From Fischerella sp. CENA71 (GTDB lineage Bacteria; Cyanobacteriota; Cyanobacteriia; Cyanobacteriales; Nostocaceae): 64,000 nucleotides of DNA. The translations under genes were made by a program, and so were the position numbers. Shown here one piece after another: positions 23,593 to 56,378 of the stretch (position 1 is its first letter; each line of letters begins with the position of its first letter). The notes below the pieces were generated by a model. The model was not told where the DNA came from. It did no database searches and was given only the letters and a program-made list of their open reading frames with translations. The DNA is taken from contig JANBVI010000006.1 of assembly GCA_024239075.1 (NCBI GenBank), positions 124,001-188,000 of the forward strand, read 5' to 3'.

Positions 23593-26500
23593 TTAACGGC
23601 ACGCCTCATTCGACACATCAGGATGGCTAGCAAAATAATCTTTCAGCCAATCGCACCCCCGCGCCAGCAGTTCATCTAAACCCTCAACTGGACGCAACTG
23701 CACAGTATTATCTACAACAATCGCTATTAACTTACCATCTGGGGTGAATACTCCATTTTTACCTTGATATTCAGCCAACTGCTGCCAATCGTCCCTTACC
23801 TGAGTCCATAAGCGCACATCATCGTCATCTGATGCAGTGGCAACAATCTTGCCATTGGGGCTAAACACCACGTTGTTGACCGAATCATTATGCTTGAGGG
23901 TGGCAATTTGTTTGCCTTGGAGATTCCACAACTTGGCTGTATTGTCTAATGATGCAGTGGCAACAGTCTTGCCATCGGGGCTAAACACTACGTTGTTGAC
24001 CAAACCATTATGCTTGAGGGTGGCAATTTGTTTGCCTTGGAGATTCCACAACTTGGCTGTGTTGTCACCTGATGCAGTTGCAATAGTCTTGCCATCTGGG
24101 CTAAACACGATGTTGTTGACCAAATCGTCATGCTTAAGGGTGGCAATTTGTTTGCCTTGGAGATTCCACAACTTGGCTGTGTTGTCACCTAATGCAGTGG
24201 CAATAGTCTTGCCATTGGGACTAAACACCACATTGAGAACCGAACTATTATGCTTGAGGGTGGCAATTTGTTTGCCTTGGAGATTCCACAACTTGGCTGT
24301 GCCATCTTCTGAGGCAGTGGCAACAGTCTTGCCATCGGGGCTAAATGCTACGTCGTAGACCCAACCATTATGCTTGACGGTGGCAATTTGTTTGCTTTGA
24401 AGATTCCACAACTTGGCTGTATTGTCTAATGATGCAGTTGCAATAGTTTTGCCATCGGGGCTAAATGCTACGTCGTAGACCCAACCATTATGCTTGAGGG
24501 TGGCAATTTGTTTGCCTTGGAGATTCCACAACTTGGCTGTGTTGTCATGTGATGCAGTCGCGACAGTCTTGCCATCGGGGCTAAACACCACGTTGTTGAC
24601 CGAACTATTATGCTTGAAGGTAGCAATTTGTTTGCCTTGAAGATTCCATAACTTGGCTGTGTTGTCACCTGATGCAGTCGCAATAGTCTTGCCATCGGGG
24701 CTAAACACCACGTTGTTGACCGAACTATTATGCTTGAGAGTGGTAATTTCTTGACCTTGGAGATTCCACAACTTGGCTGTCTTGTCAATTGATGCAGTCG
24801 CAATAGTCTTGCCATCAGGGCTAAACACTACGTTGTTGACCAAATCGTTATGCTTGAGGGTGGCAATTTGTTTACTTTGGAGATTCCACAACTTGGCTGT
24901 CTTGTCTAATGATGCAGTCGCGACAGTCTTGCCATTGGGACTAAACACCACGTTGTAGACCACACTATTATGCTTGAGGGTAGCAATTTGTTTGCCTTGA
25001 AGATTCCATAACTTGGCTGTGTTGTCACCTGATGCAGTCGCAATAGTCTTGCCATCGGGGCTAAACACCACGTTGTTGACCTGACTATTATGCTTGAGAG
25101 TGGTAATTTCTTGACCTTGGAGATTCCACAACTTGGCTGTGTTGTCACCTGATGCAGTCGCAATAGTCTTGCCATCGGGGCTAAACACCACGTTGTTGAC
25201 CCAACTATTATGGTTGAGGGTGGCAATTTCTTGACCTTGGAGATTCCACAACTTGGCTGTCTTGTCACTTGATGCAGTCGCCACAGTCTTGCCATCGGGG
25301 CTAAACGCTACGTTTCTGACCAAATCATCATGCTTGAGGGTGGCAATTAGTTTGCCTTGAAGATTCCACAACTTGGCTGTGTTGTCATGTGATGTAGTCG
25401 CAACAGTCTTACCATCGGGACTAGACATCACGTTGTTGACTGCGCCGTCATGCCTCAACTGATTTTTCTCACGGATATTTTCGAGAGTAGTTTGCAAAGC
25501 TAATAGAGGGTTGACAGTGGGATATTCTGTGAATGAGCCATTATCTTTGACTATTTGTTTTAACTCTTTTACAGATCGTGTTGCCTCGACTAAATTATCA
25601 ATACTAATAAACTCAGATGATCGCAATAAACGCGCAGATGATTGTTCCAACTTTGTCACAGTTTGCGCCTTTCTAAATTGTTGCCAACCAAATCCAGCCA
25701 ATCCTAAAGAAATAACTGCCGCAGTTGTAGTACCAAATAAAATCCGTCTTGCCTTTTTTTGAGCATTTGCTAATACCTGATTCGCTTCCCTCTCCGTCTC
25801 TAAAGCCTTTTCTGCTTGTTGTCGCGCCTGTGCCAAAATTTGATTTGCCTCTTGTTCTGCTACCAAAGCACGTTGGACTTCTCGTTTATCAAATTCCTGA
25901 CTCGCAGACAAATACTGATAATCCACACTACTCAAACTTTTGCCACTCGCCCACTGTAAAGCCTCTTGCAAAGCTTGTCCCCGCAATAAACGCGATTCAT
26001 CTTCACATTCAGAAGCCATCCAAGCATTAATTTCACTCGCATAAGGGCGGAGTTTTGCTAATTGTTGCTCACACCATTGTTGATTAAATACTTCTTGATA
26101 AATGCGGTTATAAATTAACAGTTTGCCACGACGTTTGACAGCCAACCCTGTTAACCGCAACTCTGTTTGTTCCGGGCTATTATCACTTGCGATTTCTCCC
26201 TGTTGCAAAATCTGTTGGGTCAAAGCCAATAATTGCCCAGTCCGCTGTTCACTACTCCGCAACAGCCTATCCCGAATCGTCCGCAAATGCTCCGGCTCAT
26301 CATGCATTTCCCAATTTTCAACAATCCGCTGACGCACCAAACGTTCCACAAAAATAGAAACTTCCCCCTCCTCCCCGCGTCTCCCCACATTCCCAGACGC
26401 GCCACTCTCAGACGCGCCATGGCGCGTCTCTACATTACTCCCCACCTGCGCTACCAACTTACAAACCTTCTGTGTCAAAAACGGTTGTCCACCAGTCCAC

Positions 26501-27207
26501 TCCAACACCGCTTGCATTAATGCTTGTGGATCACCTACTGCTGCAAGTCCCCTTGCTAATGGTTGCGCTTCTTCGAGTTGAAATCCCGTTAAATCAATTG
26601 CTCTACCAATATTAAATGGTGTCCTTCGCTTATCTCCAATTAAATCGGAAGGTGTACAAACTCCAATTAATGCAAACGTCAAACGATTGTATGCTGGTTG
26701 GTCAGCACGACGGTTGTAACAATCCCGAATCACAGCAAAGAAATCATCTAAATTGAATTGAATGCTGAGAATACTATCTATTTCATCAATAAAAATAATA
26801 ATTTTGTCAGTAATTCTCTGAAGTAAAACTGTTTCGAGAAACTTACTTAACTTCTGCACTGGTGAAAGTAAACTATTCTCGAACCACCAATTTTCCAAAT
26901 CAAAATCATGGTAAAGTCCAAAAGTCCCAATTAAACTATCAATCACCCCGGCGTACCATTGTTCCGGCGTAATATCTGCCGTCCCAATCGCTGTAATATC
27001 AATAGCAGCACATGCAATTCCCTCTTGTTGCAATCGCCGCATCACCTGCACCCGCAAGCTGGATTTACCCATTTGTCGAGAGTTGAGTACATAACAAAAC
27101 TCCCCCGCTTGCAAAGCCTCGTAGAGTTCAGCATCAGCTTTACGGGTGACATAGGTTGGCGCATCTTCCGGAAGACTCCCTCCAACTTGATACTGATACA
27201 GCGTCAT
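23593..27207 (-). CDS. AAA-like (nSTAND-type) ATPase with 14-15 WD40 repeats
   Basis: 1204 residues. N-terminal AAA-like domain (about 15-270) with Walker A around Lys48 ([10 protein letters not shown]) and Walker [12 protein letters not shown] helical stretch follows, then a coiled coil (about 440-490, [16 protein letters not shown]) and one membrane segment (about 490-510, [19 protein letters not shown]). The C-terminal half is a WD40 array: 14 blades of exactly 40 residues ([30 protein letters not shown]) and one decayed blade. The tail [16 protein letters not shown] is common to cyanobacterial WD40 proteins of this class. Blades are nearly identical, so the array is recent. Residues about 256-280 come from an inserted palindromic repeat. 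It is a sensor or scaffold protein at the membrane; the target is unknown. Confidence 0.88.
26367..26440. repeat. GC-rich palindromic repeat inside the AAA/WD40 gene
   Basis: Contains gacgcgccatggcgcgtctctac, an arm-to-arm palindrome of the same family as 53638-53665 and 58707-58734. Read in frame it gives a 25-residue low-complexity loop ([14 protein letters not shown]). Confidence 0.8.
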
Positions 27208-31443: not shown

Positions 31444-31564
31444 CTTAAGTAGTTACTCAAAATTAATTACATAGTTTTGTCCAAATTCTCTGAGTATTTT
31501 TTCCAGAGATTCAACAAACGTTTGCCAGCTAGAATAAGCATCGAGCTCAATCCATTGATATTTA
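31444..31564 (-). repeat. 121-bp inverted repeat, left copy (IS630 3' end)
   Basis: Exact reverse complement of 32918-33038 over all 121 bp as checked by eye. It encodes the last 37 or so residues and stop of an IS630 transposase plus a few bases beyond. Confidence 0.9.
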
Positions 31565-32034
31565 ATAAACCGCCACAGTATCTCAATTAAATTTAATTCT
31601 GGTGAATAAGATGGTAATTCAAAAATCGTAATACCTCGCTCCTTCCATGACTCAATTTTATCAAGAACGATATCGCTTGTGTGAATAGAAGCTCTATCTG
31701 CAACAATAAATGTTGGTTTATTTACTACAGGAAAGAATGCATCAATACAAGCAACAACAACATCTGAATTAATACTTTGAGATGAAACATAGGTTTCTAG
31801 GTGATTATTTTTATTCATAATTCCTAATACATTTAAACGAGGACTACGGCGACTAGGAATAGTTAGATATTCACCTCGATTTTGCCATCCATAAGGTACG
31901 GTAGGTATCAGGCAAAATCCTGTTTCATCTAAGTAATATAAGTTAATTTTACCTTCGGATTCTAAGCGTTTTAGCTCTGATAGCTGTTCCTTCTTTTCCT
32001 TGTATTCTATGGGGTCTGGTTGACCGAATACATC
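31453..32034 (-). pseudogene. IS630-family transposase, C-terminal DDE part without its N terminus
   Basis: The frame is open from just after TGA 32035-32037 to the stop at 31453, longer than the ATG-started ORF (31818). It reads GQPDPIEYKEKKEQLSELK, YYLDETGFCLIPTVPYGW, then LNVLGIMNKN, then TFIVADRASIHTS and SYSPELNLIEILWRFIKY. DE, AD and NLIE mark the DDE catalytic core of IS630/IS1066-like mariner-type enzymes. The HTH part is missing: upstream the sequence changes to an ISAzo13 transposase. It is a truncated transposase in a scrambled element. Confidence 0.85.
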
Positions 32035-32044
32035 TCAACAATAA

Positions 32045-32794
32045 AGTCACTTGTAATTTTTGACTCTGTCAAATACAAAAATCACTCATCAAGCTTTGGA
32101 AGGAATATACCGTAAGGAGTTAAGGTTGTTGTTGGATTATAATCATGGTCGTAAGTTTCGACGGAAGACCTATTTTTACCACCCCGGTCAAATGAACCAA
32201 TATTTACCCTAGCTTTCGCATCTAAACTTAAACGTAAGATACTAGGGTCATCATCTGCTGCGGAATTGATTATCGCTAATTGCTCGAATATTGCTTCGGT
32301 TTCTGGTATTTTTTTTGAGGTAAAATTTTCGCAACTCGCTTGAGATTATATCCTAAATAATTTAACTTGACACGAATTGTTTCTTCAGTCGGCAATTCTT
32401 CATCACAGTAATTGAATTTTTTAATTAGCTGTTTTCTAACTTCCGCTGCCCCCAGACGTGTATAAAGCCTTTGGCTTTTAAAAGAAGGGTCAGTTTGGCT
32501 TTGGGAGTCAACTAAATTTTTAATATCTTCTAATAGGTGTGGTAAATTTTCTTCAGTTTTATTTCGTCCTTTAGCTGAATAGTTATCCAAGCAAGTAATA
32601 CCACTTTTTAATTCTTTAGTTGCTTTACGGATAGTACATCTATTCCATCCCAATTCTTGTTCTGCGAGCCACTGCCCTCCATATCCTAACTCCAAAACCG
32701 TTTGTGCAATAAACTTACGTTTTGCTGCACCTTTCAATTGAGATGCTGTTTCTTTCAACAACTTTTTTAAGGAATCAGTTAATTGTATAGACAC
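32045..32794 (-). pseudogene. ISAzo13-family transposase, frameshifted and truncated
   Basis: N-terminal frame 32276-32794 (172 residues): AQTVLELGYGGQWLAEQELGW and CTIRKATKELKSG as HTH, then LVDSQSQTDPSFKSQ and EETIRVKLNYLGYNLKR, the pattern of ISAzo13 (Rhodopirellula-type DDE) transposases. After an A8 run (32309-32316) the -1 frame continues PETEAIFEQLAIIN, then RLSLDAKARVNIGSFDRGGK with the first catalytic Asp, then DHDYNPTTTLTPYGI, and meets a stop at 32082-32084. The C-terminal half is replaced by IS630 sequence. The A8 run may be a natural slippery site, as at 101-112. Confidence 0.75.
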
Positions 32795-37527: not shown

Positions 37528-37602
37528 AGGGTGCGTTAGTACTATTTGTGAAGTGCCATTTTTTCTATAATTTGGTGCATTGCAGTATTACTAACGCACC
37601 CT
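37528..37602. repeat. 75-bp inverted-repeat element with 14-bp perfect ends
   Basis: agggtgcgttagta at 37528-37541 is the exact reverse complement of 37589-37602. Its right edge touches the stop codon of the histidine kinase gene. MITE-like or palindromic repeat. Confidence 0.8.
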
Positions 37603-38726
37603 TACTCATGATTATTTCGTTTCGGTTTTAACAGCCTAAACCAAAACCGGGAACCTCCTTGCTCAAGAGGAACATAGCCAATTTTCCCACCCCAACGCTC
37701 TACTGTAATTCGGCAAAAGTATAGTCCTAGTCCAACTTTACCTGATTTCCCAACTTGGGAAAACTTCTCAAAAAGATTTTTAGCTTTTTCTGTTGGGATA
37801 CCAACACCTTGATCATCTATAGTCACAAAAATACTATTTTCTTCTTGCTGTAAACTAATTGTAACTGTGGAGTTCATCGGACTATGGCGAAAAGCGTTTT
37901 CTGTTAAATTTGCAATAATTCTATTCAAACGTGACTTATCGCCTATAACCCTCCAATCTTCTGTTAAGTCAATATTATTTGCAAGTTGCAGCTTTACTTT
38001 ATTGAGTAAAAAAGTGGGTGATAGAAGTTGGATAACTTCTTGTACAGAAGTTAAAACATTTGGAGCTAGCTCGGCATCTACAGTAAAAGATTCTAGAGAA
38101 TTAACTTCGGCAGAAAATGCATATAAAATATCTCTAATTAAAATTTCTTCCTGAAGTGTTTGTTTTTTCCCAATTTCTAAATATTCTCTAGCTTTTACTG
38201 TTAAGTTTTCAGTTTCTAACAGCATCAAACAACAATTAATTCCACTTATATGTCCAGCAATATCATGTATAATACAGTGAACCAAAATATCTTTTTTTTG
38301 GTTCTCTTTCATAATGTACTGGTAATTAAGTTGATGCTCTCTCGCTTTTTGAATTAAACTTCTTTTTTCTTCATATTCTTCCTCTAATAATTTGATTAAT
38401 AATATTTTATTATTTTTAACGGAAATTGCTATGGCTTCAAAATGATATTCTTTACCAGATAAATCTAATTGATGCCAAATACCTGATTTTAATTGATTTT
38501 TGTCATTTTTGTTCCATAGCTCTTCAGCATCTATCAGAAAATTTTCTAAAAAGGGAAACTCCTGTTGCGGTATGAGTATTTGCATTCCAGATTTAACTTG
38601 ATGAAGACAAAATCGTTGTAACCAATCTGGTGGAGTTCCAGTAATTCTAAAGCGGCCAAAGTTTAATCTCTCTAAGACTAGAGTATCTAAAGCAGCAAAC
38701 ACATCTGCTGTAATAGAGTCGCTCAT
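37602..38726 (-). CDS. Soluble sensor histidine kinase
   Basis: 374 residues from ATG 38726 (MSDSITADVFAALDTL); an upstream in-frame start would add three. No membrane segment. N-terminal 150 residues are PAS-like or of unknown fold, then an H-box-like helix with IIHDIAGHISGINC (phospho-acceptor His near 155), and a full HATPase domain: NLTENAFRHSP (N box), DDQGVGIP (G1), GKVGLGLYFCRITVERWGG (G2). No response regulator gene is adjacent. It lies 122 bp after the Ras-like GTPase gene on the same strand, so it may be part of the GTPase/OmpA/coiled-coil cluster. Confidence 0.85.
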   Translation of the reverse strand: MSDSITADVFAALDTLVLERLNFGRFRITGTPPDWLQRFCLHQVKSGMQILIPQQEFPFLENFLIDAEELWNKNDKNQLKSGIWHQLDLSGKEYHFEAIAISVKNNKILLIKLLEEEYEEKRSLIQKAREHQLNYQYIMKENQKKDILVHCIIHDIAGHISGINCCLMLLETENLTVKAREYLEIGKKQTLQEEILIRDILYAFSAEVNSLESFTVDAELAPNVLTSVQEVIQLLSPTFLLNKVKLQLANNIDLTEDWRVIGDKSRLNRIIANLTENAFRHSPMNSTVTISLQQEENSIFVTIDDQGVGIPTEKAKNLFEKFSQVGKSGKVGLGLYFCRITVERWGGKIGYVPLEQGGSRFWFRLLKPKRNNHE

Positions 38727-38857
38727 GATAGACACAAATTTTTTAAATGTATGTGTGATTAAATATTATTAAATAATTACTTAAAAATAGGCGCGAATTA
38801 ACATACTTTTCATTGAAAATTTTTATTAATTAATCATGTGTTTTATTAACTAAGAAT

Positions 38858-39355
38858 CTATAATTCTAAAATTTTATTAGCAAGAATTTGGAAAGATTCT
38901 TCGACACCTAAACCTGTCTTTGCACTTGTTTTAATGACGATCCAACCTCTCTGCACAACTTCGTTAATTTCGGCATCACTAATTTCCCATTCCTCTATTA
39001 AATCCCACTTATTAAGTATAAGTATAAATGGAACTGTTCCAATAGTATTTTCTACTTTAATTTGTAAGTTGAAAGCTTTTTCTAGAGTATTCTTTCTAGT
39101 TCCATCTACCACTAATAGATATCCTGATGCCCCACGTAAGTACGACATACGTACTTTTTGAAACTCATCTTCTCCATATAAATCCCAAAGAATAAAATTT
39201 ATATCTTGTCCTTGAATATTTACTGTTTTTTTATCAATTTTTACACCTACTGTTGTTTGATATTTTTCAGAAAAAATACTGTGGACGAACCTTCCTACTA
39301 AACTAGTTTTACCAGTTGCAAATGCACCTACCATGCAAATTTTTTTTTGCAGCAT
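38858..39355 (-). CDS. Ras-like small GTPase
   Basis: 165 residues from ATG 39355, which has aagga about 9 nt upstream; a TTG start at 39373 would overlap the OmpA-protein gene by 4 nt. All G motifs are present: GAFATGKTSL (G1/P-loop), the switch I threonine in YQTTVGVKI (G2), WDLYGEDEF (G3, DxxG), LNKWDL (G4, NKxD) and TSAKTG (G5). It resembles Rab/Ras-type small GTPases found in a few bacterial families, not Era/EngA. No lipidation motif. It lies just after the OmpA-domain gene (14-bp gap), indicating that the two act together, possibly as a GTP switch on the membrane protein. Confidence 0.9.
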   Translation of the reverse strand: MLQKKICMVGAFATGKTSLVGRFVHSIFSEKYQTTVGVKIDKKTVNIQGQDINFILWDLYGEDEFQKVRMSYLRGASGYLLVVDGTRKNTLEKAFNLQIKVENTIGTVPFILILNKWDLIEEWEISDAEINEVVQRGWIVIKTSAKTGLGVEESFQILANKILEL

Positions 39356-39369
39356 GAGTGATTGTTCCT

Positions 39370-41181
39370 TCAATGATGGGCATCAATTAAGAATACCTTA
39401 AAAGATACCCTACGATTAACTTGTTGATTTTGCTCTATAAGTCGTGTATTTAAAGGTTGACTTGACCCTACACCGACAGTAGTAAAATTAGTTGTATTGA
39501 TGCCTTGAGAATTTAGATAAGCGATAATTCTACTAGAACGGGCTTGACTAAGTATCATATTTCTTTGCTCTGTTCCAGTTATGTTTGTGTGTCCTGTGAT
39601 TTCAAAACGTACATCTTTGCCTAAAGATTTGGCTAAACTGGATAATTTTTTGATTGCGAATACTATATTTGGTAATTTATTACTCTCACCTGGTAAAAAT
39701 TCAGTAGTTCCCTCAATAAATAAGAGCTGATGCTGCTCAATTTGTTGTCTATATAGTTGCAATTCTTGTAGTTCTAATTCTAGTAAATTTTTATCTATGT
39801 ATTGGGTGATACCAGGGATTAAACGCCAAGATTTTTTGGCTTCTAAAATCCATTGGCGTGGTGCATTTCCTGTAGCATACAAAATACCATTTGGGTCAAC
39901 TCTGAGTGATACAGTTTTGGGAGTTTGCAGTAATTGTGCAGCTCTTTTCGCTATTATTTGCGGCTCCAGGGATACATAAGGTTGCCATTGACTAATAACT
40001 GTCTTAGGATTAATGTTAGCTTGTTGCATCAGTAAATACGGATCTATAGCTAAGGGATCGCGCATTCCAGAAATGAAATTTTTCCTATATCCCTTCTTGG
40101 CTTGAATCACAACAATCCCAGGCTGAGAGTTAAGTTTTTCTAGATATGCATTCCAACGCAATTGTTCTCTCAAGCTAAAAAAGCTCCATACCCCAAGTGC
40201 GATCGCGATCGCACTCAGTAAACTCCATGCATATACATAGCGTTTATTGGATGGAACTTTATACCTTACTTCTAAACATTCCTCTAAATAAGCTTTACTA
40301 ATACTAAATAATTTGGTTTCACCTGTGAAATCATGAAGTTCTCTATGCAATTTCAGGTGAATCTTTTCTATTGCATTTTGAAAAACTAATCTTAATTCTT
40401 GAGGAGCATTTCCTCGAATTATACCTGCTAATACTGCTTGTGGTCCTTCCTCAATCCATATAGTAAGTTCCCCAAACTGCAAACTTTGTAAAGCCTCACC
40501 TTTTTCTACATTGAAAGAGTCTTTGACAAAATCTTGAATAGCTGTCAACATAGCGGAAACTAAATCAGGATCTTGAGCAGCCACCTGTGGCGCTAAAACA
40601 TTTTGCAGCAATAATCCAGTTTCCTTGTGAATTAAAAATACTTGTTCCACTTGGTAAATCAAGGTGCGTAGTAGAACAACTTCAGCAAAAGTCTTACCTG
40701 TCTGTCGTGCTTCTAGTCTCCACTTAAAACTCTGTGGTGACATACTATGTTCTAGTGTTTGATTCAAAGATTGAATCATTTCACTCAGAGCTGTGCTAAT
40801 CGCCTTACGAGTTGCAGGACCAATTATAGGAAAAAATGCTTCAGAAAGAACATTTAAATCTTGCTTCACAGACGATTGAATTGCTTTTTCAACTGTGGGA
40901 ACCATTGCTTCGGCTAACTTTTGATCTTGCATTGTTCTCAAAATCACAGCTTCTGGAAGCAAACGACTGATATCTTCTGCTTGAATTTGAGAATTTTCTA
41001 ATTGCTTGTATAGTTTATCAAGTTGTGCAGTTTCTATCCCCAATAGCAAACTACGGAGTTCACTGAGTTCATCAGTAGCTTCTTTGTGATTGTTATTTAG
41101 AGGTAAAGTTTCATGGGGGTTGCTACCATTAGAAACTTCGGGTAATTTGTCAGTTGATTCATCAGGATAATATTCATTCAT
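39370..41181 (-). CDS. OmpA-domain membrane protein with a Roadblock/longin-like cytoplasmic region
   Basis: 603 residues from ATG 41181 (MNEYYPDESTDK); GTG 41202 would add seven. The N-terminal 310 residues are soluble and helical. About 155-270 has HKETGLLLQNVL, AMLTAIQDFVKDSF, GELTIWIEEGPQAVLAGIIRG, a pattern like Roadblock/longin-type domains that partner small GTPases; this fold call is inference. One membrane helix follows (about 313-335, WSLLSAIAIALGVWSFF). The C-terminal periplasmic domain is OmpA/MotB-like (FEITGHTNITGTEQRN, LSQARSSRIIAYL, RRVSFKVF) and should bind peptidoglycan. It is probably co-expressed with the downstream GTPase gene. Confidence 0.82.
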   Translation of the reverse strand: MNEYYPDESTDKLPEVSNGSNPHETLPLNNNHKEATDELSELRSLLLGIETAQLDKLYKQLENSQIQAEDISRLLPEAVILRTMQDQKLAEAMVPTVEKAIQSSVKQDLNVLSEAFFPIIGPATRKAISTALSEMIQSLNQTLEHSMSPQSFKWRLEARQTGKTFAEVVLLRTLIYQVEQVFLIHKETGLLLQNVLAPQVAAQDPDLVSAMLTAIQDFVKDSFNVEKGEALQSLQFGELTIWIEEGPQAVLAGIIRGNAPQELRLVFQNAIEKIHLKLHRELHDFTGETKLFSISKAYLEECLEVRYKVPSNKRYVYAWSLLSAIAIALGVWSFFSLREQLRWNAYLEKLNSQPGIVVIQAKKGYRKNFISGMRDPLAIDPYLLMQQANINPKTVISQWQPYVSLEPQIIAKRAAQLLQTPKTVSLRVDPNGILYATGNAPRQWILEAKKSWRLIPGITQYIDKNLLELELQELQLYRQQIEQHQLLFIEGTTEFLPGESNKLPNIVFAIKKLSSLAKSLGKDVRFEITGHTNITGTEQRNMILSQARSSRIIAYLNSQGINTTNFTTVGVGSSQPLNTRLIEQNQQVNRRVSFKVFLIDAHH

Positions 41182-41274
41182 CGCCAAAAATATCCAACTC
41201 ACGATCTTATGTTGAGTTGCATCTTTTTTAAAAATTTATTGAAAATAGTGTTAGCAAGTAGGAATTAAAGACTA

Positions 41275-41402
41275 GTTAGTGGTTAGTGGTTATTGGTCAT
41301 TTGTCATTTGTCATTTGTCATTGGGAATCAGAAATAATTTTGAATTTGCGATTTTGGATTAAAATCTAAAATCCAAAATCTAAAATCTAAAATCTAAAAT
41401 TT
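41275..41402. repeat. STRR cluster (tcatttg and aaaatct units)
   Basis: Several tandem heptamers of two types fill the gap between the coiled-coil and OmpA-protein genes. Confidence 0.8.
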
Positions 41403-41448
41403 ACTGTCTCCCCACCCTCTCCACACCCCCAAAACTTCCCATATCTAA

Positions 41449-42048
41449 CTATCGAGAATTCAGCCGTATGGCGAATTCTGTAAACATAGCTGCAAGAGTG
41501 GAACGATCTGTTTTTTCTGCACGTATTTCTTGAGATTCTTGTTGTAGTAGTGCTATGATTTCTTCGTATTTTTGACGAATGTCATCCTGTAGGCTTTGAG
41601 ATTGATTAAGAAGTTGTTCGCGTAATTCACGTGTTTTTGTCGCTGCTTGTTCATCAATTTGAGAGAGCTTTCTTTCTATAGAAAGATTGATTCCTTTTTG
41701 CTCTTCGCTGAGTGTTGCGATCGCTTCCTCTCGTTTTAATTGTTCGCTTTTGATCTGATCATTTACAGCTTCAACTTCATTTTTGATATAATTTTCTAAA
41801 TAATCTAAACGTTTTTTTGTTTCATCTCGTAAGCTAGCACATTCTTTGATGAGACGATCTTCTAAGCGCGTAAACTTTTTTTCTAGTTCTCGCATCTGAC
41901 CGCCAAAAAGAATATCTCTGACTTTATCTAAACTGCTAATGTCGCCAAAGCTATTACTTATTGAAGCCTGATTGGTGCTTGGAACTAAACCACCTGGGTT
42001 TGAGTCTGCAAAATTATGATGAAATTTTTCTCCTTCCATCGAACTCAT
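41449..42048 (-). CDS. Coiled-coil protein of the GTPase/OmpA cluster
   Basis: 199 residues (or 196 from the internal ATG). A short disordered start is followed by SLDKVRDILFGGQMRELEKKF and a long continuous coiled coil to about residue 170 (RLEDRLIKECASLRDETKKR, LREQLLNQSQSLQDDIRQ). The end DRSTLAAMFTEFAIRLNS is a conserved-looking amphipathic tail. No membrane segment. The DILFGGQ motif is seen in a class of bacterial coiled-coil proteins of unknown function. It is first in a run of four minus-strand genes with the OmpA protein, GTPase and kinase. Confidence 0.75.
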   Translation of the reverse strand: MSSMEGEKFHHNFADSNPGGLVPSTNQASISNSFGDISSLDKVRDILFGGQMRELEKKFTRLEDRLIKECASLRDETKKRLDYLENYIKNEVEAVNDQIKSEQLKREEAIATLSEEQKGINLSIERKLSQIDEQAATKTRELREQLLNQSQSLQDDIRQKYEEIIALLQQESQEIRAEKTDRSTLAAMFTEFAIRLNSR

Positions 42049-53764: not shown

Positions 53765-55360
53765 TTATGCTGTCCGAAAACGCGCCAGTTCTTCGCCTGT
53801 TTTAGCGTCATGGGCGTGAACTGTACACACTAAACAAGAATCAAATGATCGGGCCACATGACCTACTTCTATAGGGTCAGCTGGATCAGCAATCGGTGTA
53901 CCCATTAAAGCTTCCTCAATGGGGCCAAGCTTTTGTTCGGCGTCACGGGGGCCAATGTTCCAAGTACTAGGGGCGATGACTTGATAGTTCTTGATTTTGC
54001 CATCTTCTAGTTCAACCCAGTGACACAGGGAACCCCGCGCTGCTTCTGTCGCACCCCAACCACGCCCATCTTTTTGCTTGGGTTTGATGTACCAAGGTTC
54101 ATTTAATTTGAATTCGCGCAAACAGCGTTCGGCTTGGCGATACAACTTGACAATTTCGTGAACCCGTGCTAACTGACGAAGATGAACGCTGGGGCCGCCC
54201 ATCCGCTTGAAAACATCAAGGATAAATCCATCATAATGTTGCCAAGATTCGCCGTGTGTACCACCTGCAACCAATTGTCTGGCTAAGGGGCCAGCTTCTA
54301 ACCGTCCATATTCGGTGTGGCGGACTGCACTTGACCAGGAATAAGCACCGTTGAAGTCTTTCTGATTTTTAGCGATGGGGTTGGTGGTGCGATCAAACGG
54401 GTGAATGTCTCCTGTACCTTCTTCGTACCAAGAGTGAGTTGTATTCTCACGAGCAAAGGTATGATCCATCAAGGTGTGAGTGTCGCTGTAACTGTCGTAC
54501 ACTCCACTTTTCATGATCATGGCAGCATTACGGCTGGCGATGGTTGGTTTTTGGTATTTATCTTCATGGGGTAAATATCCCCAAGTGACGTATTTACCAA
54601 CACCACCACCAAATTTATCTAAACCAATATCTAAACCCATCCGCCAATAGAAACCCAAGTCGGACTGGCGATGGTTACGATTTTCGTGCAACCAAGCCAT
54701 AAAGTCATCATAGGTCTGGATTTCTTCGTAGCGTTCCAAGGAACAACCCAACCATACAGGTTCTAGCCAATTGGTGCGGAAATATTCTAGGATTGACCAG
54801 GCGCGGGTAATATCGGTGAGAGTGGGGGCGCACATCACGCCACCAGGAACCATGTAACTAGAATGGGGCCATTGACCACCTAAGAGGGCATAAATTTCTA
54901 CTGGTTTAGCAGAAATTGTGACGCCGATTTCGTAATGTTTGCCAGTAAAGGCAGCAAAGCGACGGACTGCTTCACTATAATAACGGCTATTTTGATATTT
55001 TTTATTTGTGAGATCGATCGCAAATAAACCGTAAAAATAGCGGGGTATACTTTGAATTGTTTCAACTATTTGACCGAGGTTTCTAGCTAAAATTGCATTC
55101 GGTGGAACTTCTGTTTCCCAGGCGGTATCCAATGCCCAAGATGCACAGGTGAGGTGAGAACCACCGCAAATTCCACAAATACGAGGTGTGACAATTAATC
55201 CGGCTTGGGGGTCTTTGCCACGTAGAATTACTTCAAATCCGCGGAAGAGTTCGGCGTGAGTCCAGGCGTTAATTACTTGTCCATCTTCGATTTCCACCCG
55301 CACATCTAAATCGCCTTCGACCCTCCCCACGGGTGAGATGTCTAATATTTGAGTTCCCAT
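53765..55360 (-). CDS. hupL: Uptake [NiFe] hydrogenase large subunit
   Basis: 531 residues. It carries the Ni-Fe(CN)2CO active site of the uptake hydrogenase that recycles H2 made by nitrogenase. Nickel ligands: N-terminal RICGICGGSHLTC and C-terminal DSCLVCTVH. The 17 residues after that His (AHDAKTGEELARFRTA region) are the extension normally removed by a HupW-type protease after nickel insertion. The gene is continuous: the excision element with xisC that interrupts hupL in some Anabaena strains is absent, either never present or already excised. It follows hupS by 55 bp with a hairpin in between. Confidence 0.97.
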   Translation of the reverse strand: MGTQILDISPVGRVEGDLDVRVEIEDGQVINAWTHAELFRGFEVILRGKDPQAGLIVTPRICGICGGSHLTCASWALDTAWETEVPPNAILARNLGQIVETIQSIPRYFYGLFAIDLTNKKYQNSRYYSEAVRRFAAFTGKHYEIGVTISAKPVEIYALLGGQWPHSSYMVPGGVMCAPTLTDITRAWSILEYFRTNWLEPVWLGCSLERYEEIQTYDDFMAWLHENRNHRQSDLGFYWRMGLDIGLDKFGGGVGKYVTWGYLPHEDKYQKPTIASRNAAMIMKSGVYDSYSDTHTLMDHTFARENTTHSWYEEGTGDIHPFDRTTNPIAKNQKDFNGAYSWSSAVRHTEYGRLEAGPLARQLVAGGTHGESWQHYDGFILDVFKRMGGPSVHLRQLARVHEIVKLYRQAERCLREFKLNEPWYIKPKQKDGRGWGATEAARGSLCHWVELEDGKIKNYQVIAPSTWNIGPRDAEQKLGPIEEALMGTPIADPADPIEVGHVARSFDSCLVCTVHAHDAKTGEELARFRTA

Positions 55361-55381
55361 GATTTGTCCTTTTGGTGATTG

Positions 55382-55416
55382 GTTCGTAGTAAGAACGCTT
55401 TGTGCTTACTACGAAC
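55382..55416 (-). promoter_or_regulatory. Hairpin in the hupS-hupL gap
   Basis: gttcgtagtaag at 55382-55393 is the exact reverse complement of 55405-55416 (12-bp stem, 11-nt loop). One arm touches the hupS stop codon. Such hairpins between hupS and hupL are known in filamentous cyanobacteria and are thought to stabilise the dicistronic mRNA or balance the two products. Confidence 0.8.
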
Positions 55417-56378
55417 TAAACTAAGAAAAAGTCTTCATCTGCCCAAGTTGGGGCGGCGTCTTTGGCGACTACGGTCAGTAAAGCATAGTCTTTTTGTTTG
55501 ACTCCTGGTGGTAGTTCTTTGGGAACTCCCATGACAGTTTGAGTTTTAAATACGGTTCCTGGTTTAAGGTCAAAGAAGGGAAATTCTGGTTCGGTACAAC
55601 CTAAACAAGGCATTCCCGCACGGGTTTTGGAAGAAACGCGGTTCCACAAGATGCGGTTACAGGAAGAATGAGTCATGGGGCCACGACAACCCAAGTCGTA
55701 GAACAGACAACCTTTACGTTGACCAAATTCAGCAGTGCTTGCTTTATAGGCAAAGTGAATGTTGCGGGTACAACCTGTTTGAGTAAAGGTTTTGAAGAAG
55801 GTTTGAGGACGATGGAATTCGTCAAGGGTAATATCGCCAATTCTACCAGTGGCGATCGCCACTAATATCTGCGTTATCCAATCAGGATGGGCGGGACATC
55901 CAGGAATATTAATGACAGGTACTCCGGCTTTGGAACGGTAATCTGTTCCTAAAAAACCACCTTTTTGGCGTTTGAGAAATTGTAAACCTTGAGATTCACT
56001 AGGGTTAGGTTCCATAGCTGGAATTCCTCCCCAAGTCGCGCAATCGCCTACTGCTACTACATATTTAGCGACTTTTGCTAAATCGCTAACCCAATTTTTC
56101 ATCGGACGATGAGCAAAGCGATTCCATTCTCCCGTACCATTGGGGGCATTAACTACACTACCTTCAAATACCAAGATATCTACAGGGATTTTGCCTAAAA
56201 CGCAATTCCATAGCATCCCTTGCAGATTGTCTCCTAGTTCTTGTCCCAAGGAAGGATGCCATAGTACGTTAATACCAAAGTCGGAAATTAAGTCACAGAC
56301 AGTTGGTTCTTCTGCATTTAAAAATGACATGGTGTTGCCCGAACAAGCACCACCTTGTAACCATAATACGTTAGTCAT
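55416..56378 (-). CDS. hupS: Uptake [NiFe] hydrogenase small subunit
   Basis: 320 residues. It holds three Fe-S clusters that carry electrons from the NiFe site. Cluster ligands seen: ACSGNTMSF near the start, GDCATWGG, IPGCPAHPDW, and the distal and medial set CTRNIHFAYK, CLFYDLGCRGP, CNRILWN, CLGCTEPEFPF. As in other cyanobacterial HupS proteins there is no N-terminal Tat signal and no C-terminal membrane anchor, so the enzyme faces the cytoplasm. First gene of hupSL. A perfect NtcA box lies about 290 bp upstream. Confidence 0.97.
   Translation of the reverse strand: MTNVLWLQGGACSGNTMSFLNAEEPTVCDLISDFGINVLWHPSLGQELGDNLQGMLWNCVLGKIPVDILVFEGSVVNAPNGTGEWNRFAHRPMKNWVSDLAKVAKYVVAVGDCATWGGIPAMEPNPSESQGLQFLKRQKGGFLGTDYRSKAGVPVINIPGCPAHPDWITQILVAIATGRIGDITLDEFHRPQTFFKTFTQTGCTRNIHFAYKASTAEFGQRKGCLFYDLGCRGPMTHSSCNRILWNRVSSKTRAGMPCLGCTEPEFPFFDLKPGTVFKTQTVMGVPKELPPGVKQKDYALLTVVAKDAAPTWADEDFFLV

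Follow-up and report, generated by a model that had tools for sequence, protein, structure and literature searches.

Within the window analysed here, a stretch of 64,000 nucleotides from Fischerella sp. CENA71 whose positions give the coordinates below, four neighbouring genes on the minus strand code in order for a coiled-coil protein, a membrane protein with an OmpA end (the OmpA protein), a Rab-like GTPase, and a histidine kinase. The reading that we favour, with moderate confidence, is that a Roadblock/longin platform tethered to peptidoglycan sets the GTPase, and that the GTPase in turn acts on the kinase via a "glutamine domain". The gene order, the domains, the fold match of a low-confidence model, the co-occurrence of the kinase N-domain with the rest of the module, and the conservation of a glutamine are all seen directly. 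In the proposed mechanism, the OmpA protein would span the inner membrane, with its C-terminal part holding the peptidoglycan, and its cytosolic Roadblock/longin domain would serve as the platform where the GTPase docks and where its nucleotide state is set, with the coiled coil assisting. The GTPase would act on the neighbouring kinase through the kinase's N-terminal glutamine domain. This domain may, in addition, provide the catalytic glutamine missing from the GTPase. The kinase would then phosphorylate an unlinked partner. We infer the binding of the GTPase and a signal that would run from the state of the envelope, as input, to the target of the kinase. In relatives, the same GTPase would be connected to a class III cyclase or to cyclic di-GMP (c-di-GMP) enzymes, either in place of the kinase or alongside it.

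A preliminary description of this DNA had reported the four minus-strand genes, a spacing of 14 bases between the OmpA stop codon and the GTPase ATG, and five G motifs in the GTPase. All of this is borne out, and the four-gene arrangement is confirmed. The four proteins closely resemble those of Fischerella muscicola SAG 1427-1 (L008), with identities of 93% for the coiled coil, 90% for the OmpA protein, 97% for the GTPase, and 94% for the kinase.

The gene order holds in other genomes, as that description had proposed. A search for proteins closely related to the OmpA protein gave 34 loci, which were fetched (type A). The coiled-coil and OmpA genes lie together in all of them (L036 and L040 have split frames, that of the coiled coil in L036), the GTPase gene follows the OmpA gene in 32 (the exceptions being L025 and L027), and an open reading frame (ORF) coding for the kinase or its N-domain follows in 31 (the exceptions being these two and L036). 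When 386 cyanobacterial genomes were searched by profile, with up to three candidates scored per genome, at least 12 full-length relatives of type A, including the window, were found, and at least 36 places that match the N-domain of the OmpA protein at E < 1e-20 (type B). Most other matches listed in this search cover the OmpA domain only. These 36 more distant loci were all retrieved, and the GTPase gene is downstream of the OmpA gene in 30 of them and the coiled coil upstream in 29; some of the absences fall at contig ends. Among plasmid records, 129 have a match of some kind, and among the 30 matches listed 26 cover only the OmpA end. Two of three matches on rhizobial plasmids were examined (Mesorhizobium sp. 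WSM1497 and Rhizobium sp. 007), and both have the coiled coil, the OmpA protein, the GTPase after it, and a further gene. The viral contigs searched encode no relative of the core domain. A role as a defence system was considered and rejected, PADLOC giving only generic or weak matches (the OmpA part to ZorB, the coiled coil to ZorA and LmuB, the P-loop to PtuA, and the cyclase of L040 to PycC).

The OmpA protein and the coiled coil

The OmpA protein (39370..41181, minus strand) has 603 amino acids (aa), with another possible start at a GTG at 41202. Its cytosolic domain (residues 145–306; 40264..40749, minus strand) is followed by a membrane helix at about residues 319–338 (40168..40227, minus strand), which is the hydropathy maximum and lies within a helix predicted at 316–352. 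Then come a periplasmic unit (residues 346–480) and the OmpA peptidoglycan-binding domain (residues 481–603), together at 39373..40146 on the minus strand. The latter domain is recognised both by Pfam (OmpA, E 1.5e-11) and by its fold, which upholds the wall-anchored arrangement suggested earlier. In the rhizobial OmpA proteins (L134 6914–9979; L135 6851–9916), the periplasmic unit appears by eye to be present in tandem copies, and it is single in the window.

The preliminary description had read residues of about 155–270 as Roadblock/longin-like. A low-confidence model of the cytosolic domain is in agreement with this, as its fold matches are uniform, most of them covering residues 174–294 of the window protein, and MglB is among the best. 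On this weak model, the domain would have the Roadblock/longin fold. A full-length model was left out of this claim because its cytosolic residues 100–315 almost all have a predicted local distance difference test score (pLDDT) below 50. Relatives of the domain give some further support, since Pfam Fuz_longin_1 matches 3 of the 41 aligned core-domain members and all five relatives of about 1200 aa (at least two of which are also among the 41). These matches stay below the curated cut-off of this longin family of FUZ, MON1, and HPS1 (PF19036), the best being 24.3 bits in L104 against a cut-off of 26.1, and the core domain of the window has none. A scan of 45 genomes with the same model gave one match at E 1.3e-4, at the L104 locus, and none above the cut-off. 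Its other matches are at E 0.1 or worse, away from the places of the module, and at the loose limit 2 of the 14 control genomes match too. Hence, this model alone fails to find the module. A search of the PDB with the 41-row core alignment was discarded, as its six matches are due to chance and are all to beta-glucosidase.

The coiled-coil protein (41449..42048, minus strand, 199 aa) matches no Pfam family above the family's own cut-off. It carries an LRxLL-type motif (VRDILFGGQ, residues 43–51), which is found in 18 of the 20 aligned type A coiled coils and also at the N-terminus of all 34 type A OmpA proteins, and in only 2 of the 36 type B ones. The presence of the motif in both type A partners, in rows that are related to one another, hints at a shared docking element. 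Between the two genes (41203–41448) one can identify by eye short tandem repeats with ATTTTAG-like and TGACAAA-like units.

The GTPase and the published Group 1 Rup modules

The GTPase (38858..39355, minus strand, 165 aa; Pfam Ras, E 8.1e-32) has eukaryote-like G1–G5 motifs and lacks the glutamine in G3, as do the Group 1 Rup GTPases that Wuichet and Sogaard-Andersen defined in 2014 in cyanobacteria and other phyla (PMC4316618). Its G3 aspartate is kept (Asp58 in WDLYG), and the position of Gln61 is taken by Glu62, which is invariant in the 21 aligned type A GTPases. Type B GTPases have His, Gln, Ser, or Asn at this position. In a single-sequence search of the PDB, the nearest solved chain is Rab23 (E 5.1e-25), which scores 91.5 bits where the next family scores 79.3. 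A type B GTPase, the single one examined in this way, is nearest to Rab22, and for this reason Rab23 was dropped as a signature of the whole family.

PMC4316618 describes three kinds of gene that are conserved next to those of Group 1 Rup GTPases. One codes for a coiled coil, one for a conserved domain of unknown nature with, in many cases, a membrane helix and OmpA after it, and one for an output module, usually either a c-di-GMP enzyme or a histidine kinase. The same paper notes that the output protein has an invariant glutamine, missing from G3 of the GTPase, and suggests that glutamine is provided in trans. It states that no Rup member had been experimentally characterised, one having been shown to be transcribed in Nostoc punctiforme. 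Among the small GTPases of prokaryotes, those of Group 1 Rup are described as the closest to Rab, Ras, Rho, and Ran (PMC4316618, PMC4915359).

The window has this neighbourhood, with a Rab/Ras-like GTPase lacking the G3 glutamine, a coiled coil, and a cytosolic domain with membrane helix and OmpA; Gln126 of its kinase is a candidate for the invariant glutamine. Judging from sequence, the locus fits a reduced form of the Group 1 Rup module, lacking a fifth gene found in relatives (see following), that is already catalogued and uncharacterised. Thus, the suggestion that the system was undescribed does not stand, nor does its description as cyanobacterial, given the several phyla reported in PMC4316618 and the rhizobial plasmids. 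The difference lies in the domain left as unknown in PMC4316618, which is here read as Roadblock/longin, and in the cyclase-linked fifth gene of the relatives. The words "longin", "adenylate cyclase", and "guanylate cyclase" are absent from the main text of that paper. Literature searches found no work joining longin, OmpA, small GTPase, and peptidoglycan, and none since 2015 combining Rup with small GTPase, OmpA, and coiled coil; among the matches listed for the Rup phrase, only PMC4316618 and PMC4915359 have these GTPases as their subject. Within these searches, the reading of the unknown domain as Roadblock/longin, which comes from a weak model with uniform fold matches, would be new, as would the cyclase-linked fifth gene with its putative losses and the apparent link to the kinase at the level of genomes. 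Naming the partner domain as Roadblock/longin would provide a concrete candidate regulator of Group 1 Rup GTPases, and with it a testable pair in a wall-tethered form.

Kinase, glutamine domain, and fifth gene

The fourth gene (37602..38726, minus strand) codes for a predicted histidine kinase of 374 aa, with a putative phospho-acceptor histidine and a HATPase_c domain (Pfam, E 1.9e-23). Pfam HisKA has no match in it. H154, D155, and residues in the N and G boxes are invariant in 18 of 18 aligned kinases, and this is also the case for Gln126, which lies in the N-terminal glutamine domain (residues 1–145; 38292..38726, minus strand).

The distribution of this N-domain follows that of the module. 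Among 12 type A genomes, 11 have it in a single copy, which adjoins the module in ten and is unlinked in G191, where it is about 3.6 million bases away. It is absent from all six genomes picked from the family list for lacking the module. This co-occurrence is evidence for a link that goes beyond gene order.

Outputs vary among relatives. In L041, the ORF in the position of the kinase has the same N-domain, with GGDEF and EAL domains replacing the kinase. A fifth gene is found directly after the GTPase gene in 23 of the 34 fetched type A loci, coding for a short protein of about 130 aa, a glutamine domain by itself, in 20 of them and for a longer one in L036, L040, and L041. The longer proteins include a class III cyclase domain in L036 (Pfam, E 1.6e-18), in L040 (E 5.8e-19), and in L130 of genome G308 (E 1.7e-13); in L041 the match to this domain is below the Pfam cut-off (E 0.014). 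The fourth gene of the rhizobial plasmids itself codes for a fifth-gene protein with a cyclase. The profile of the N-domain matches at E 4e-33 and 2e-33, and the cyclase at E 5e-50 and 3e-50. In a tree of 36 OmpA proteins, rooted at midpoint and built without L025, L027, and the split L040, two changes are needed to explain where the fifth gene is absent, one among the Hapalosiphonaceae, the window included, and one in a Nostoc/Komarekiella group; we read both as probable losses. The cyclase fusions in this tree (L036, L041, L130) are all on one side of a single branch (support 88/97), under the same rooting.

Among type B loci, output proteins with a PAS-like N-domain are present at 21 of the 36 (34 proteins), and the three that were scanned have kinase, hybrid kinase, or GGDEF parts. 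Of the 23 fifth-gene proteins, 16 were aligned and all of these have the glutamine, as do 33 of the 34 type B outputs. The three sets of N-domains can be aligned by profile over most of their length, weakly. The kinase and type B profiles match at E 3.2e-4 with the glutamine in register, those of the fifth gene and type B at E 0.0076, and those of the kinase and the fifth gene at E 0.028; the glutamine meets either of two adjacent glutamines of the fifth-gene protein.

Alternative explanations and known systems

Several observations weigh against a Roadblock/longin platform that controls the kinase through the GTPase. The domain model is weak (pLDDT 51.7, predicted template modelling score 0.37), and strands 3–5 of the domain are not formed in the full-length model. 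The 41 core-domain members match 12 Pfam families when E values up to 1 are admitted, and Robl_LC7 (PF03259) is not one of these; the attempt to identify a Roadblock by sequence failed, the OmpA N-domain profile having no match among 20 cyanobacterial Roadblock proteins. The Gln at the Gln61 position of some type B GTPases argues against a need for glutamine in trans there, and no recognised glutamine-domain protein is in the fetched stretch at 15 of the 36 type B loci. The GTPase is not found in the fetched stretches of L094 or of L025 (a Scytonema metagenome-assembled genome, MAG) and L027 (a Rhizonema MAG), the latter two having the coiled coil and the OmpA protein and neither fifth gene nor kinase there. 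The relatives of about 1200 aa (L104, L109, L111, L114, L116) have the domain, and the stretches fetched for them contain neither a GTPase nor a coiled coil. Finally, 131 bases separate the GTPase stop from the kinase ATG in the window, and because of this distance the kinase may have its own putative promoter, and genome G091 has the module and lacks the kinase N-domain altogether.

These last two points favour the kinase being a chance neighbour in the window's clade, the true unit consisting of the coiled coil, the OmpA protein, and the GTPase. We regard this as the least likely of the alternatives, because the N-domain accompanies the module in 11 of 12 genomes, including the unlinked case of G191, and is absent from the six others. 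A doubtful, if somewhat better, case can be made for a domain that mainly dimerises the membrane protein without contacting the GTPase, leaving the glutamine-domain proteins as the sole regulators. Within the stretches fetched, the domain occurs without GTPase in the five long relatives, and the OmpA protein does so in L025 and L027; against this, the GTPase gene lies behind the OmpA gene at most loci in the two phyla examined, and Roadblock/longin domains are known as platforms of small GTPases (PMC10933270). Equally improbable in our view is a structural envelope or polarity system like that of MglA and MglB in Myxococcus, in which the kinase would only regulate the placement of the GTPase and the OmpA protein. 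Both systems pair a small GTPase with a Roadblock-fold partner. Yet, the best solved match of the window GTPase is a Rab, its partner is anchored to membrane and wall and lacks a Robl_LC7 match, and the outputs of relatives are kinases, c-di-GMP enzymes, and cyclases, which points to signalling over motor placement. The MglA family has lost the conserved G3 aspartate and has Thr instead (PMC4316618), whereas the window GTPase keeps it, and another GTPase of this genome is of MglA type (G3 YGTPGQ) and is followed by a Robl_LC7 gene (G000:C4:287301-288564; L007, L077). The earlier comparison of the GTPase with MglA is thus abandoned, and our analyses of sequence, fold, and neighbourhood give no support for either polarity or motility.

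Two other known systems are similar in part to the wall-tethered GTPase platform that we favour. The actinobacterial conservon (CvnA-D) also clusters a kinase, a Roadblock-type protein, a small GTPase, and one more protein (PMC4316618). Its GTPase belongs to the MglA family and its Roadblock protein is an MglB homologue, neither of which is found at the window locus, and PMC4316618 mentions no OmpA anchor in describing its parts. The eukaryotic tri-longin Rab exchange factors (RabGEFs) Mon1-Ccz1 and Fuzzy-Inturned act on Rab7 and Rab23. The type A GTPase is nearest to Rab23, and Fuz_longin_1 matches some relatives. On the other hand, these matches fail to reach the Pfam cut-off and the window has none, the type B GTPase tested is nearest to Rab22, and the Tyr-Lys/Arg motif in switch 1 of tri-longin RabGEF substrates (PMC12383261) is replaced by Y32-Q33 in the window and by Y-L in type B. 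It is a speculative idea, to which we give little weight, that Group 1 Rup is the bacterial counterpart of the pairing of Rab with a longin exchange factor, its longin being related to the first longin of Mon1 and Fuzzy and fixed to the wall, with kinase, cyclase, and c-di-GMP outputs connected via one exchangeable glutamine domain. If it were true, the Rab-longin switch may be older than its role in vesicle traffic.

Elsewhere in the window, a few features can be recognised by eye. A long protein with WD40-type repeats is at 23593–27207, and in its other frames, including those of the opposite strand, the repeats yield long ORFs (e.g., 23837–24358) that are unlikely to be genes. Two ORFs (31453–31818 and 32276–32794) resemble pieces of an insertion-sequence transposase, and an apparently uninterrupted pair of genes for the large and small subunits of an uptake hydrogenase lies at 53765–56378.
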